Below are positions 1 through 10,641 of a DNA stretch of 64,000 bases, piece after piece. The DNA lies in assembly GCF_001267405.1 (NCBI RefSeq), contig NZ_CP012369.1:2212402-2276401 (forward strand). The letters are read 5' to 3'. The translations under genes were made by a program, and so were the position numbers. Origin of the DNA: Moorella thermoacetica. Lineage in GTDB: Bacteria > Bacillota > DSM-521 > Neomoorellales > Neomoorellaceae. The notes below the pieces were generated by a model. The model did not search any database. It saw nothing but the letters and a program-made list of their open reading frames with translations, and was not told the origin of the DNA. The stretch's first letter is position 1. Every line of letters begins with the position of its first letter.

Positions 1-152
1 TAAACCAGAAGGGCCAGGCACATGGTCGCCGCTTTATCGGGCCGCAGCTCTTTTACAGTCTTCAGTACTGCTTCCCGGCCCAGGAGGCCGTACATCTTGC
101 CGATACCGCTGCAGGGGATGACGTAAACTTTGCGGGAGCTATTTACTGGCAT
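1..152 (-). CDS. DGC-domain putative zinc-binding protein, 3' truncated by window edge
   Basis: The frame opens with ATG at 152 and runs off the left edge. The visible residues begin MPVNSSRKVYVIPCSGIGKM, followed by LLGREA and a conserved TMCLALL stretch. A Cys in a PCSGIGK context near the N-terminus is typical of DGC (putative zinc-binding) proteins. The start overlaps the 3' end of the upstream DGC-lipoyl fusion by 14 bases, so the two are probably translationally coupled and work together. The function of DGC proteins is poorly known. The family call rests on about 50 residues. Confidence 0.6.
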   Translation of the reverse strand, partial: MPVNSSRKVYVIPCSGIGKMYGLLGREAVLKTVKELRPDKAATMCLALLV

Positions 153-1011
153 TGAAATCAGCCACCTTTTCCTTTAATACTTCCATATAGCGCCGCCCGT
201 CCAGTAAAAATTCGCGGTCAGCCTCAAAATTGGTCAGTTCCAGTTCGGTAATCCAGCCCTTTTCATAGGGGTTTTCATTGATGAGTTCCGGCGCCTCTAG
301 GATGGCTTCATTAACGGCCACCACCCTGCCTGTAACCGGGGAAACCAGTTCATAAACCGCTTTGGCCGACTCGATGGTACCCATTTCGCCGAATTGCTCC
401 ACTTCCGTACCCGGATCGGGGGGCGTGACAAAGGTAATATCGGAAAGGTTTTGCTGCAGGTAGTCGCTGATGCCTACGCGGCCCCTGTTCCCCTCTACTT
501 GCACCCAGCAGTCGTTCTCGTTGAAGTAAAAGCCTTCCAGGGGTACCCGGAAGATAAACTTATCGTGGCGATGGATGGCGTATTCCAGCGGGCCGGCAAA
601 AAGGCCGGCGTTTTCTCCCGGCGCCCGGCCGGCTTCCTGTTCCCTGAGTACAGGCTGCCAGGACCGCCAGACATCCTCCACGAAGGCCGCCGCCCCTGCC
701 CCCACCCGCCAGTCCGGGCCGGGGTTATAATCCCTCTTTTTAGCTTCTTCGGTCATAGTTATCTTGCGGTAAATCTTCAGGTTATTGTTGGCGGCAATCC
801 GGCTGGCGCAACGGGTGGCGCAGCCGTCGATAACCACCAGGCTACCTTCCCGGAGAAGAGAAGCATAACGGGACGGCGCCGTCTGGTAAAGCACCGGGCA
901 GATAATCTCGCTCCCGGTGGCCGCCGCCATTTTCAGGGCCAGTTCCCGGGCCAGGCAGCCGGCTTCTTTATCCAGGCCGTTACAGGGCAAGATAACATAC
1001 TTTGCAGTCAC
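139..1011 (-). CDS. Fusion of DGC zinc-binding domain and lipoyl (GcvH-like) domain
   Basis: This is a 290-residue protein with a GTG start at 1011. Residues 1-120 look like a DGC domain: VILPCNGLDKEAGC near the N-terminus and VIDGCATRCASRIA around 60-75. Residues 135-275 look like the glycine-cleavage H protein, with a lipoylation-type motif TIESAKAVYEL in which the Lys is the expected attachment site, followed by SPVTGRVVAVN. A GcvH-type lipoyl domain normally carries intermediates or electrons on a swinging dithiolane. Free-standing GcvH-like proteins also occur next to Hdr-like redox complexes. The gene follows the ferredoxin by 2 bases and overlaps the next DGC gene, so it is in one operon with an HdrA-N-like protein. 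The domain calls are by eye. The fusion itself is directly visible as a single frame. Confidence 0.75.
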   Translation of the reverse strand: MTAKYVILPCNGLDKEAGCLARELALKMAAATGSEIICPVLYQTAPSRYASLLREGSLVVIDGCATRCASRIAANNNLKIYRKITMTEEAKKRDYNPGPDWRVGAGAAAFVEDVWRSWQPVLREQEAGRAPGENAGLFAGPLEYAIHRHDKFIFRVPLEGFYFNENDCWVQVEGNRGRVGISDYLQQNLSDITFVTPPDPGTEVEQFGEMGTIESAKAVYELVSPVTGRVVAVNEAILEAPELINENPYEKGWITELELTNFEADREFLLDGRRYMEVLKEKVADFNASK

Positions 1012-1013
1012 GG

Positions 1014-1301
1014 CTATTTACCCCCTTCTTCCTGGCGCAGGGCCTTGATTGCTTCCAGGACCCGGGATTTTTCGGGAAAGGAAATGGCATCCGGCCCGCA
1101 GGTCTTGGCGCAGGCACGGCAAAAAACGACGCAGTTTGTGGGATTGGCCACGATAAGCCGCGGCTCTTCCTCCCGGATTTCATATACCTGGTGGGGACAG
1201 AATTTAGCGCACTCCAGGCAGTAGTTGCACCTGGTATAATCAATCACCGGCGCCCAGGTAATCTTTTCCCGCGGCACGCCCATAAAGGTGTTTTCAGCCA
1301 T
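1014..1301 (-). CDS. Ferredoxin-type protein with two 4Fe-4S motifs
   Basis: This is a 95-residue soluble protein. The first cluster motif is CNYCLECAKFCP (C-x2-C-x2-C-x3-C). The second is CVVFCRACAKTCGP, with C-x3-C-x2-C-x3-C spacing. It should carry two 4Fe-4S clusters and shuttle electrons. Its ATG overlaps the stop of the HdrA-N-like gene by 8 bases, and the DGC-lipoyl gene follows 2 bases after its stop. This supports a shared redox complex or relay. The natural partner is not known from the sequence. Confidence 0.85.
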   Translation of the reverse strand: MAENTFMGVPREKITWAPVIDYTRCNYCLECAKFCPHQVYEIREEEPRLIVANPTNCVVFCRACAKTCGPDAISFPEKSRVLEAIKALRQEEGGK

Positions 1302-1671
1302 TGGCCTGCGCCTCCCAATCCGCCAGGGCGTCGGCCACTTTCTGAAATGCTTCCTCGGTGGTCAGGTCGCGGATGTCCAGGGGGTAAAAATCGGTCTTTA
1401 AATCCATACCGGCTGCCGCCAGGGCGTCCCGGAACATTTTATTCTGCATGTTGGGGGCACAGGCGGCAATCATGACCTTGCGATGGGCCTTGAGGAAGTC
1501 GGCCAGGAAGCGGTCACCGTCCTCCTCGCATAACTGGGGGTGGATAAAACCGTACTCCACTGGCAGCTCGACCCGCACCCGGTTAATAAAGTCCCAGATG
1601 TCCATCTTGGCAAACCCCGGGCACTTGCCGGTGCAGACGCACATGATTAAACCCGGCTTTTTTTCAGACAT
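1294..1671 (-). CDS. Small protein resembling the N-terminal domain of HdrA
   Basis: The product has 125 residues. It opens with MCVCTGKCPGF, then has YGFIHPQLCEEDGDRF and KVMIAACAPNMQNKMFRDAL. This order (Cys-rich start, a mid CxxDG-like Cys, then an AACAPxMxxxxFR block) is what the N-terminal domain of heterodisulfide reductase subunit A looks like. The FAD-binding body of HdrA is absent, so this is a stand-alone version. A good ribosome site (AAAGGAG) precedes the ATG at 1671, with a strong promoter upstream. It is the first gene of the redox operon. The HdrA relation is a judgement by eye. Confidence 0.6.
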   Translation of the reverse strand: MSEKKPGLIMCVCTGKCPGFAKMDIWDFINRVRVELPVEYGFIHPQLCEEDGDRFLADFLKAHRKVMIAACAPNMQNKMFRDALAAAGMDLKTDFYPLDIRDLTTEEAFQKVADALADWEAQANG

Positions 1672-1733: not shown

Positions 1734-1761
1734 ATTATATAACTTTATACTTATTTGTCAA
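1734..1761 (-). promoter_or_regulatory. Promoter of the HdrA-N-like/ferredoxin/DGC-lipoyl operon
   Basis: On the minus strand TTGACA (1756-1761) and TATAAT (1734-1739) are separated by 16 bases. Both hexamers are perfect sigma-A matches. The implied start lies about 55 bases before the ATG at 1671. Confidence 0.8.
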
Positions 1762-1833
1762 GGTTATTATATACGATTTTACTAATATAATAAGTGCATT
1801 CTTCTCCATTTCATTTTCCTCCCTTTGCTTTAT

Positions 1834-2093
1834 TTAATCCCTCCATGAGCGCCATAGTTTCAGCAATCTCCCAATATCTCCCGCCAAGTCTAATAAAGTA
1901 ATTATCCGGGGGTCCTTGATACGGTAAATCACCCGTAAACCCTCTTTGGTGGCCTCGACGATGTCCTGCTAGCGCAGGACAGCGAGATGCTGGGAAATGT
2001 TGGGCTGATCCAGCTCCAGTTCAGCAATTAGCTCGCAAACGCAACGCTCGCCATGGCGCAAAAGATCTATAACCCGCACCCGGCCTGCCGACC
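1834..2093 (-). pseudogene. ArsR-family regulator remnant, 5' deleted and with in-frame TAG
   Basis: Read on the minus strand, the frame gives GRVRVIDLLRHGERCVCEL, then ELDQPNISQHLAVLR, a TAG at 1969-1971, then VEATKEGLRVIYRIKDPR and a TAA at 1834-1836. This is the helix-turn-helix and wing of an ArsR/SmtB regulator, with the CVC metal-site pattern. The N-terminus is missing. The frame runs directly into the 5'-truncated transporter remnant on the other strand, so one deletion probably removed both starts and the shared promoter. Confidence 0.75.
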
Positions 2094-2991
2094 ATTGCCA
2101 ACTATTTTAAAACTAATATCAATTCCGTCCAGTGGGTTACCTCCGTCTACCTGTTGACCATGTCCGCCCTGCTCTTGATCTTCGGTATCATGGCAGACGC
2201 TTACGGCCGCCGCCGTATTTATAACGCCGGTTACTTTGTCATCACCATTTTCACCCTCTTTTGCGCCTTTGCCACCAGCATCGGGATGCTCATCTTTTTC
2301 CGGGTGTTACAGGCTGTAGGCGGGTCGCGATAACAGCCTGTTTTTGATTTTTTACGAACGCCGCCGCGCCAATGCCATACTTGATTTCCAGCTCTTTAAC
2401 AACTGAACCTTTACCTCGTCGATCATAGCTGCCCTGGTATCTTTTATTACCATGTACTCGCCGACTGTTTTGATACCCTTTTTCTACCAGAAAGTGCTGG
2501 GCTTTACTCCCCAGAAGGCCGGTTTCTTAATGATGGCTTTCCTGGCGGCCATGGCCATTACCGCCTCTTTCAGCGGCTGGCTTTCCGATAAAATCGGTTA
2601 TGTACTCTTAACCACCAGCGGGCTGGTATTGAACGGCCTGGCCCTGGTGGCCCTGGCCAACATCAACCTGCAAACGCCCTTAACCTTGATAATCATTTAT
2701 ATCGCCGTTATGGGCACCTCCCTGGGGATGTTCCAATCCCCGAACAATAGCTGCGTTACGGGCAGCGTGCCTAAGAACAAACTTGGTGCCGCCACGGGTA
2801 TCAGCCAGTTAATCAAGAATTTAGGTATGGTCATCGGTATAACTTTTTCCGTAGCCATCTTCAGTTCGCGAATGGCCGGCATGCCCGTTGAATACAACCA
2901 GGCGTTTGTCAAAAGTATGGGTTTTGTCTATTACCTGGCAGCCGTTTTAAGTTTTGCCGGGGCCGTTATTTCCTCCCGGCGTAGTAAATAA
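2091..2991 (+). pseudogene. MFS (DHA2/EmrB-type) drug transporter, degraded
   Basis: The first frame encodes IANYFKTNINSVQWV and a MADAYGRRRIYNAGY segment, the start of a 14-helix MFS exporter, and ends at TAA 2331. The next segment, in another frame from 2332, reads ERRRANAILDFQLFNN, hits TGA at 2404, and then continues open to 2991 with several membrane helices. The N-terminus and the central part (about 100 residues) are missing. The 179-residue frame from 2452 is the C-terminal piece and not an independent transporter. It lies back to back with the arsR remnant, its likely former regulator. Confidence 0.8.
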
Positions 2992-3633: not shown

Positions 3634-4761
3634 GTGGCAAAAATGAATTATACTGATCGCGAGTACTGGAACGGTATCATCAAGATGTGCCTCTCGAAGT
3701 TTTTCATCCTGCGGGTTCTCTACACCCAGCCCATGCACGGCTACGAGATAGCCCGCACCGTAGCCCAGGTCACCAGGGGGTGCTGCACGCCCACTGAAGG
3801 GACGATTTACCCGGTACTCAGGGAGTTCGAGGAGGGCGGCTATGTCACTTCTTCCCTTGAGATAGCCGGGGGCCGGGAGCGCAAAGTCTATACCCTTACG
3901 CCAAAAGGGCAGGAGGCCTTCCGCGTGGCTGTAGAGGCCTGGAAGGAGGTTACCGGCTACATTTTAGAGGCGGTAAAGTTAGAGGATTATGCAAGCACAA
4001 GGAGGCGCTGTATTATGGCAGGAGCGAAAGGTATACTTTCCAACTTTTCTGGCCTGCGGGAAGGCAACTGCTATTCCGTTCGCAACGAGGAAATCCCCAT
4101 AGGACAATGCCGTACCGCCGCTAGCAGTTGTAGCTGCGGGAGTTCTTTACCGGGCAGTTTCGACAAAGAAGAGGGGGGAGAAATAGGGATATCGCCCGAT
4201 ACCCAGGCGTCCCAGCGTTCCCTCGACATCGAGTTTCTCTACCTGGACCTTGATTCCTGCACCAGGTGCGGTGGAACGGCCCGCAACCTGGAAGAGGCCC
4301 TCAACGAAGTGGCAGGGGTCTTACAGGCTACCGGGATCCAGGTCAACCTGCACAAGATCCACGTCCAGTCGGAAGAACAGGCCCTGGCCCTGGGATTTGT
4401 CAGTTCGCCTACCATCCGCATCAACGGGCGGGACATCCAGCTCGACGTCAGGGAAAGCCTCTGCGAATCCTGCGGCGAGATTTGCGGCGAGGATGTGGAC
4501 TGCCGCGTCTGGGTGTACCAGGGGAAGGAATATACCGAAGCTCCCAAGGGTATGATTATTGAGGCCATCCTGAAGCACGTTTACGGGGGTGGAAATGAAA
4601 GCCCGGCAGAAAGGGAAACACTGCAGGAGCTGCCCGATAATTTAAAGCGCTTCTTTGCGGCCAGGCGTAAGAAAGAAGAAGGTGGAGCCGGCCGCAAGCC
4701 CGCGCCGGAACCCCAAGACAGTTGCTGCGGCATTTCTCCCTTATCTAAATGCTGCAAGTAA
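3634..4761 (+). CDS. PadR-family regulator fused to DUF2703
   Basis: The protein has 375 residues. Residues 15-115 are a PadR winged helix (LSKFFILRVLYTQPMHGYEI, then TPTEGTIYPVLREFEEGGYV and ERKVYTLTPKGQEAF). Residues 125-185 are a linker with several Cys (CSCGSS). Residues 190-320 match DUF2703: SCTRCGGTARNLEEAL, SSPTIRINGRDIQ, CESCGEICGEDVDCRVW. The C-terminus ends SCCGISPLSKCCK. About 20 Cys suggest metal or thiol sensing built into the regulator. DUF2703 proteins are often found in metal or arsenic resistance neighbourhoods, and the nearby arsR/transporter relics fit that. Start choice is GTG 3634 or ATG 3643. A terminator hairpin follows. The ligand is unknown. Confidence 0.85.
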   Translation: MAKMNYTDREYWNGIIKMCLSKFFILRVLYTQPMHGYEIARTVAQVTRGCCTPTEGTIYPVLREFEEGGYVTSSLEIAGGRERKVYTLTPKGQEAFRVAVEAWKEVTGYILEAVKLEDYASTRRRCIMAGAKGILSNFSGLREGNCYSVRNEEIPIGQCRTAASSCSCGSSLPGSFDKEEGGEIGISPDTQASQRSLDIEFLYLDLDSCTRCGGTARNLEEALNEVAGVLQATGIQVNLHKIHVQSEEQALALGFVSSPTIRINGRDIQLDVRESLCESCGEICGEDVDCRVWVYQGKEYTEAPKGMIIEAILKHVYGGGNESPAERETLQELPDNLKRFFAARRKKEEGGAGRKPAPEPQDSCCGISPLSKCCK

Positions 4762-9768: not shown

Positions 9769-10641
9769 CTATAATATGGGTATACATTTCACTTCATTAT
9801 TTGCATAAAAATACACTTCAGCCGGCGTCTTATATTCCAGTGATTGGTGGATGCGGCGGTAGTTGTAGAACTCCAGGTAACGGGCAATTCCTCTTCTCGC
9901 TTCCCTGGGGCTGCTATACTCGTTCAAGTAAACTTCTTCATATTTTAGGCTACGCCAGAGACGTTCAGTAAAGATGTTGTCGGTTGCTCTGCCCTTGCCG
10001 TCCATGCTGATCTTGATACCGGCGCTCTGGAGTAAATCGATATACTCCGGACTGGTGAATTGGGACCCCTGGTCGCTGTTCATTATCTCCGGCCTGGCCC
10101 GGGCCAGGGCTTCTTCTACGGCTTGAAGCACGAAGGTCGTCGCTAGATTCTGGTCCAGGGCCCATCCTACCACAAAGCGCGAGTACCAGTCTATAATGGC
10201 TACCAGGTACATCCACCCCCGGACCAGTCGGATGTAAGTGATGTCAATGCCCCAAACCTGGTTGGGCCGGGTGATATCAAGGTTGCGCAGCAGGTAGGGG
10301 TAAATGCGGTGTTCCTGGTTGCGCCTGCTTAAGTTGGGTCCCGGGTAGATGGCTATAAGGCCCATTTCCCGCATGTGACGCTGGACGGCTTTACGGTTGA
10401 CCAAAAATCCCTCCTTCCGCAGCTGGGCGGTGATGCGCCTGGAACCGTAAAAGGGGAAGGCGGTGTATATTTCGTCGATACGGTGTTTTACCGCTATTTC
10501 TTCTGGTGAAGGGGGTACCGGCTGGTAGTAGAGGCTGGAGCGATTTAAGCTTAGTAGTTCCGCCTGTTTCTTAATGGACAGCTCAGGATGGCCCCATTCC
10601 ACCAGGGAAATACGTTCGTCTCGGTTAAGCTCAGAGGCCAC
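9769..10641 (-). CDS. IS3-family transposase OrfB (DDE integrase)
   Basis: This frame has 290 residues. The HTH_21-like start (KQAELLSLNRSSLYY) is followed by the rve integrase core: WGIDITYIRL (first Asp), IMNSDQGSQFTSPEY (second Asp) and FTERLWRSLKYEEVYLNEY (Glu). The end YNYRRIHQSLEYKTPAEVY is typical. It overlaps orfA by 11 bases, with a run of eight A at the junction, so it is probably made as an OrfAB fusion by -1 frameshifting. It appears intact. Confidence 0.92.
   Translation of the reverse strand: MASELNRDERISLVEWGHPELSIKKQAELLSLNRSSLYYQPVPPSPEEIAVKHRIDEIYTAFPFYGSRRITAQLRKEGFLVNRKAVQRHMREMGLIAIYPGPNLSRRNQEHRIYPYLLRNLDITRPNQVWGIDITYIRLVRGWMYLVAIIDWYSRFVVGWALDQNLATTFVLQAVEEALARARPEIMNSDQGSQFTSPEYIDLLQSAGIKISMDGKGRATDNIFTERLWRSLKYEEVYLNEYSSPREARRGIARYLEFYNYRRIHQSLEYKTPAEVYFYANNEVKCIPIL

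Follow-up and report, generated by a model that had tools for sequence, protein, structure and literature searches.

The window analysed here is a stretch of 64,000 nt from Moorella thermoacetica (GCF_001267405.1, NZ_CP012369.1:2,212,402-2,276,401), whose left end carries, on the minus strand, an operon that combines iron-sulfur proteins with a predicted lipoyl carrier. Positions beyond the left edge are given on a stretch of the same genome, L004, in which position 9903 corresponds to window position 1. The features, listed from the upstream side, are as follows:

1823..2082, minus strand, remnant of an ArsR-family regulator gene, on the upstream side of the operon (tblastn)
1734..1761, minus strand, predicted sigma-A/sigma-70-type promoter, TTGACA-16 nt-TATAAT, matching 12/12 consensus positions
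1294..1671, minus strand, HdrN, stand-alone HdrA-N-terminal-like protein of 125 aa with Cys 11, 13, 17, 48 and 71 (profile and Foldseek matches)
1014..1301, minus strand, two-[4Fe-4S]-type ferredoxin (Fdx) of 95 aa with eight Cys (Pfam Fer4)
139..1011, minus strand, DGC-H, 290 aa, an N-terminal DGC domain joined to a C-terminal GcvH-like lipoyl domain (PF08859 and PF01597)
730..996, minus strand, DGC domain of DGC-H, residues 6-94, with Cys 10, 38, 64 and 68 (PF08859, E=3.5e-17)
169..528, minus strand, GcvH-like lipoyl domain of DGC-H, residues 162-281 (PF01597, GCV_H, E=4.7e-34)
361..363, minus strand, codon of the predicted lipoyl lysine K217, motif IESAK
1..152, minus strand, start of DGC2, a stand-alone DGC protein of 140 aa (Pfam DGC, E=2.1e-12; whole gene L004:9632-10054)

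The preliminary description had placed an HdrA-N-like protein, a ferredoxin, a DGC-GcvH fusion and a further DGC gene here behind a strong promoter. All four genes were located on the minus strand, HMM searches returned the domains expected for DGC-H and the ferredoxin, and the promoter is supported as a consensus match, with a strong ribosome-binding-like sequence downstream of it. HdrN and the ferredoxin gene overlap by 8 nt, the gap from the ferredoxin gene to DGC-H is 2 nt, and DGC-H and DGC2 overlap by 14 nt. The operon extends past the left edge of the window, which falls inside DGC2; in the genome, the remainder of that gene is followed by DGC3, a 110-aa Cys-rich protein, a cysteine-desulfurase-like protein (TIGR01977) and an FeS-domain protein. 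The 110-aa protein (L004:8853-9185, minus strand; GGGCGCGCGG motif), encoded between DGC3 and the cysteine desulfurase, matched no Pfam family, and Pfam gave no support for its candidacy as an ArsD homologue. The Asgard loci, too, are adjoined by a small Cys-containing protein that matches no Pfam family (L142:9164-9454).

Farther left lie genes for ArsP_1-type permeases, PadR, ArsR and an ACR3 arsenite exporter (TIGR00832, 465 bits). The ArsR gene upstream of the operon has an internal stop and a missing 5' end, and its relic is 87% identical over 70 aa (tblastn) to an intact ArsR (L009:3177-3509) found at the same place in the sister genome G010. As this gene is a pseudogene in the genome studied, regulation may have been lost there. 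Lpd and LplA-type enzymes are encoded elsewhere in this genome than in the operon. No ArsM scored above the cut-off in it (best 80 bits versus 263), which favours export as the fate of arsenic in M. thermoacetica and rules out ArsM as an obligatory or universal partner of the operon.

Several other genes in the vicinity were recorded. An MFS transporter gene broken into two ORF fragments adjoins the operon (window 2105-2990, plus strand), and at window 3634-4761 (plus strand) what looks like a fusion of a PadR regulator with a DF-family (seleno)protein domain scores below the curated cut-offs; this DF domain is joined to ArsM at L067:10155-11807. A second pair of ArsR and permease genes of this genome lies about 17 kb to the left of the operon (L005:5072-6366), and its permease falls below the cut-off for the SaoE and SO_0444 efflux families.

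Folds and conserved residues of the core proteins

An AlphaFold2 model of DGC-H reached a mean pLDDT of 92.1 and a pTM of 0.59, the latter leaving the relative placement of the domains uncertain. Its C-terminal half superposed on H-proteins with Z values of 18-22.6 and an rmsd of 0.9 over 131 residues (best 1htp, Z 22.6), and with a TMt of 0.93 against 3klr. As modelled, the C-terminal region of DGC-H is a true H-protein fold, and K217 is invariant in 84/84 full-length DGC-H proteins; the preliminary description had let its reading depend on this fold and on conservation of the IESAK lysine, and both were upheld. Against the gcvH equivalog TIGR00527, DGC-H scored 107 bits, below the cut-off of 115.85; the broader NF002270 was the sole model passed (118.9 versus 117). 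In a tree made from a short alignment with a quick method, 54 DGC-H lipoyl domains were split from 24 canonical GcvH proteins by one branch with an SH-aLRT of 100. M. thermoacetica also has a separate canonical gcvH, which is 45% identical over the H domain of DGC-H.

The cysteines of the DGC proteins are retained almost without exception. In the DGC domain of DGC-H, Cys 38, 64 and 68 are invariant in 84/84 proteins and Cys 10 is present in 83/84, while DGC2, found at full length in 82 loci, and DGC3 have four Cys each, kept in at least 80/82 and in 84/84, respectively. A profile search for DGC relatives among solved structures gave no credible match. In VIA the DGC domain matched flavodoxin-like folds with a Z of about 7, which is the background level stated for the tool, and these weak matches were discarded.

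HdrN had no match in Pfam, even at E=10. A profile built from 39 HdrN sequences gave credible E-values for HdrA chains only (7bkb, E=2.3e-5; 9sfi; 5odc), and the top six Foldseek matches were likewise HdrA chains, with E of 9e-5 to 1.3e-3. In the profile alignment C11, C13, C48 and C71 align with HdrA cysteines and C17 is extra; all five are invariant in 88/88 HdrN sequences, as are the eight ferredoxin cysteines in 86/86 homologues. The 125-aa chain corresponds to the HdrA N-domain alone, and the FAD (thioredoxin-reductase-like) domain is absent.

Distribution of the core and its gene neighbourhood

Within the genus, the fusion was present in 4 of the 11 genomes examined, with a deleted remnant in a fifth, and one fusion came from a different family of the same phylum. 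Of 398 genomes in that phylum, 9 carried close relatives of HdrN (at least 67% identity) and 14 a distant type (about 40%). Searches by tblastn found no plasmid-borne copy of the operon. In one genome of the genus (G005, L011), a deletion has left a 137-aa chimera in which the beginning of DGC-H runs into the final part of DGC2, and HdrN was not found in that genome.

One scan over the GTDB species genomes yielded 128 loci. Among the best 80 were loci of Bacteroidota, Acidobacteriota, Actinomycetota, Armatimonadota, Planctomycetota, Bacillota, a Desulfovibrio MAG and an Alphaproteobacteria MAG, together with archaeal loci of the Asgard lineages Lokiarchaeota and Sigynarchaeota; many loci come from MAGs, so single odd taxonomic placements are not to be trusted. 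HdrN, Fdx, DGC-H, DGC2 and DGC3 occurred together in nearly all of these best 80 loci, mostly in that order and rearranged in a few. Overall, the core is kept in about 85 loci from at least seven bacterial phyla and the Asgard archaea, and its tree across these groups was midpoint-rooted. The recurrence of this fusion and its gene set in dozens of distant genomes places the pattern far beyond chance.

For analysis of neighbours, loci were dereplicated at 80% identity to 54 and examined within a radius of 9 kb; 40 arbitrary 18-kb stretches served as controls, taken from Bacillota only whereas the loci span many phyla. At least one of ACR3, ArsM, ArsA, ArsC and ArsP was present in 35/54 loci and 0/40 controls (Fisher p ~4e-12, to be read with the Bacillota-only controls and the phylogenetic non-independence of the loci in mind), and ArsR in 44/54 loci versus 2/40 controls. 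Other neighbours counted among the 54 loci were ArsE-type thioredoxin (29), LplA (21), ACR3 (20), CcdA (20), Lpd (15), ArsC (14) and ArsM (12). A structural ars gene was missing from the visible stretch in 19/54 loci, several of which end at contig ends. Same-strand runs, with gaps of up to 250 bp, included Lpd and/or LplA in 26/54 loci, LplA in 16/54 and a structural ars gene in 15/54, and the gene directly upstream of HdrN encoded Lpd in 12 of the 54 and an ArsE-type thioredoxin in 10. Neighbour identities were checked on representatives scoring above curated cut-offs (ArsM NF008823, ACR3 TIGR00832, ArsA TIGR04291, Lpd TIGR01350, LplA TIGR00545, ArsE-family Trx TIGR00412). A CxC motif like that of As(III)-sensing ArsR was found in 23/38 nearest ArsR proteins and was absent from 15/38. 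Sulfur-type neighbours (cysteine desulfurase, the Se/S carrier PF11823 and TauE) occurred in a minority of loci, with cysteine desulfurase near 6/54. These neighbourhoods constitute a strong link between the lipoyl operon and arsenic.

Two further arrangements were observed. The gene at L092:8906-10000, directly upstream of HdrN, encodes ArsM joined to a thioredoxin-like domain of the ArsE family. The second, more distant HdrN type (about 40% identity; L069-L081) is paired with a ferredoxin in loci without DGC-H, and these 13 loci mostly adjoin ArsR, ACR3, ArsC, ArsA or ArsP.

Proposed role and comparison with known systems

We consider it somewhat more probable than otherwise that the operon encodes a lipoate-based redox/thiol relay with which anaerobes respond to arsenic, and for this relay we infer the following chemistry. 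A lipoylated carrier is very likely because the lysine is constant and lipoate ligase and lipoamide dehydrogenase are frequent neighbours; electron transfer is likely because the iron-sulfur proteins have fixed cysteines; and arsenic is the most likely substrate because arsenic genes adjoin. Lipoate would be attached to K217 by LplA or by the housekeeping machinery. Reduction of the dithiol arm would come from lipoamide dehydrogenase at the expense of NADH, from low-potential electrons that travel via the ferredoxin and the iron-sulfur domain of HdrN, or from both. Once reduced, the arm and the four-Cys DGC domains might bind arsenic species and reduce the pentavalent to the trivalent form or, alternatively, deliver As(III) bound to thiols to ArsM for methylation or to ACR3/ArsP for efflux. 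The arm would swing between the proteins that feed in electrons and the DGC proteins, much as the H-protein arm does among the P, T and L proteins.

The preliminary description had already proposed a lipoate-based relay, by analogy with the lipoyl carriers linked to Hdr modules. Its anatomy and the relay idea hold, but its sulfur or one-carbon framing misses the dominant arsenic context (ACR3, ArsM, ArsA, ArsC, ArsP, ArsR): the operon survey that it called for found the gene set far beyond Moorella, chiefly in surroundings that it had not mentioned. The Hdr analogy is reasonable, although none of the catalytic Hdr partners that operate in sulfur oxidation was seen.

Regulators of the ArsR type act in sulfur systems as well, and the lipoyl arm might instead carry sulfane sulfur or persulfide in a relay like that of sHdr-LbpA, with these regulators sensing persulfide and the ars genes adjoining as both stresses co-occur. 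We regard this as unlikely. The absence of CxC from 15 of the 38 nearest ArsR proteins would fit such a relay, as would the TIGR01977 cysteine desulfurase (found in the M. thermoacetica operon too), PF11823 and TauE near some loci, and sHdr is the sole system in which lipoate is known to go together with an Hdr-derived module (PMC6067878, PMC10332631). However, cysteine desulfurase accompanies far fewer loci than the structural ars genes (6/54 versus 35/54), a motif scan (not HMM) of ORFs in the 54 loci for an HdrB-like CCG protein near the core gave one apparently spurious match, and ACR3 or ArsC genes also accompany ferredoxin-HdrN pairs that lack the lipoyl component.

Two other explanations were weighed. 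Dihydrolipoyl dithiols bind As(III), and each DGC domain has four invariant cysteines, so reduced lipoyl-DGC-H and the DGC proteins could act as a sponge or chaperone that sequesters As(III) and shields the central lipoyl enzymes without redox turnover, Lpd and ferredoxin merely keeping thiols reduced; the strict retention of an eight-Cys ferredoxin and a five-Cys HdrN argues for electron transfer over passive binding and makes this improbable, slightly more so than sulfur transfer. The H-protein ancestry of the carrier and the presence of ArsM in 12/54 neighbourhoods could also reflect a one-carbon relay, in which the arm bears a methylene or methyl group, for instance in methylarsenic demethylation or synthesis. 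This we think very improbable, given that no P- or T-protein was recognised among the recurrent neighbour families and that the recurrent lipoyl partner, Lpd, is an oxidoreductase.

The nearly unaltered recurrence of the five-gene set across anaerobic bacteria and the Asgard archaea, mostly with arsenic-resistance genes at its side, suggests an undescribed use of lipoate in arsenic handling. In a wider form, to which we commit only tentatively, lipoate would have a further role as a dedicated swinging-arm carrier of electrons or arsenic in an anaerobic arsenic-transforming multi-protein system that has spread between bacterial phyla and Asgard archaea, in which HdrN, ferredoxin and Lpd form a dismembered HdrA-like electron-entry unit and DGC is a new arsenic-binding or -reducing family. 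Arsenite toxicity results largely from the capture of dihydrolipoyl groups, and a dedicated lipoyl carrier in arsenic islands would make a tool of this weakness. The DGC proteins would gain a candidate function, and an anaerobic arsenic pathway would be open to tests in culturable acetogens and Desulfosporosinus. The roles of protein-bound lipoate listed in the introduction of a 2023 article are few (2-oxoacid dehydrogenases, glycine cleavage, reactive-oxygen defence and sulfur oxidation) and do not include arsenic (PMC10332631). No description of the gene cluster was found in the open-access PMC literature, whose coverage leaves out most subscription journals.

Each part of the proposed system has a known counterpart from which it departs. 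The N-terminal domain of HdrA is matched by HdrN in sequence and fold, but HdrN lacks fused FAD or ferredoxin domains; the ferredoxin is separate, as is Lpd in some loci, and together Lpd, HdrN and Fdx would resemble the flavin, N- and ferredoxin domains of HdrA as separate proteins. DGC-H shares with GcvH its fold, the lipoyl lysine motif and Lpd as partner, but forms a separate clade, is fused to DGC and falls below the gcvH equivalog cut-off. GcvH-L, which is carried in Gram-positive SirTM operons, is also a lipoylated H-like carrier within a redox/stress operon; its structure (5a35) is a weaker match to DGC-H than GcvH is (Z 15 versus 18-22.6), and the SirTM/GcvH-L operons lack DGC, HdrN and ferredoxin. 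The ars operons, among them those with ArsM, ACR3, ArsP and ArsEFG (for ArsEFG, PMC9144182), resemble the present loci in that ArsR, ArsE-type thioredoxin, efflux and methylation genes adjoin the core; in the open-access literature searched, no lipoyl carrier, DGC protein or HdrN was found in any ars determinant. The nearest known system is sHdr-LbpA sulfur oxidation (Cao et al. 2018, PMC6067878; PMC10332631), which likewise has a GcvH-like lipoyl carrier outside carbon metabolism, its own lipoate ligase nearby and an Hdr-derived component. It differs in that here only the N-domain of HdrA is present, as a small separate protein, the carrier is fused to DGC, and ars genes replace those of sulfur oxidation.
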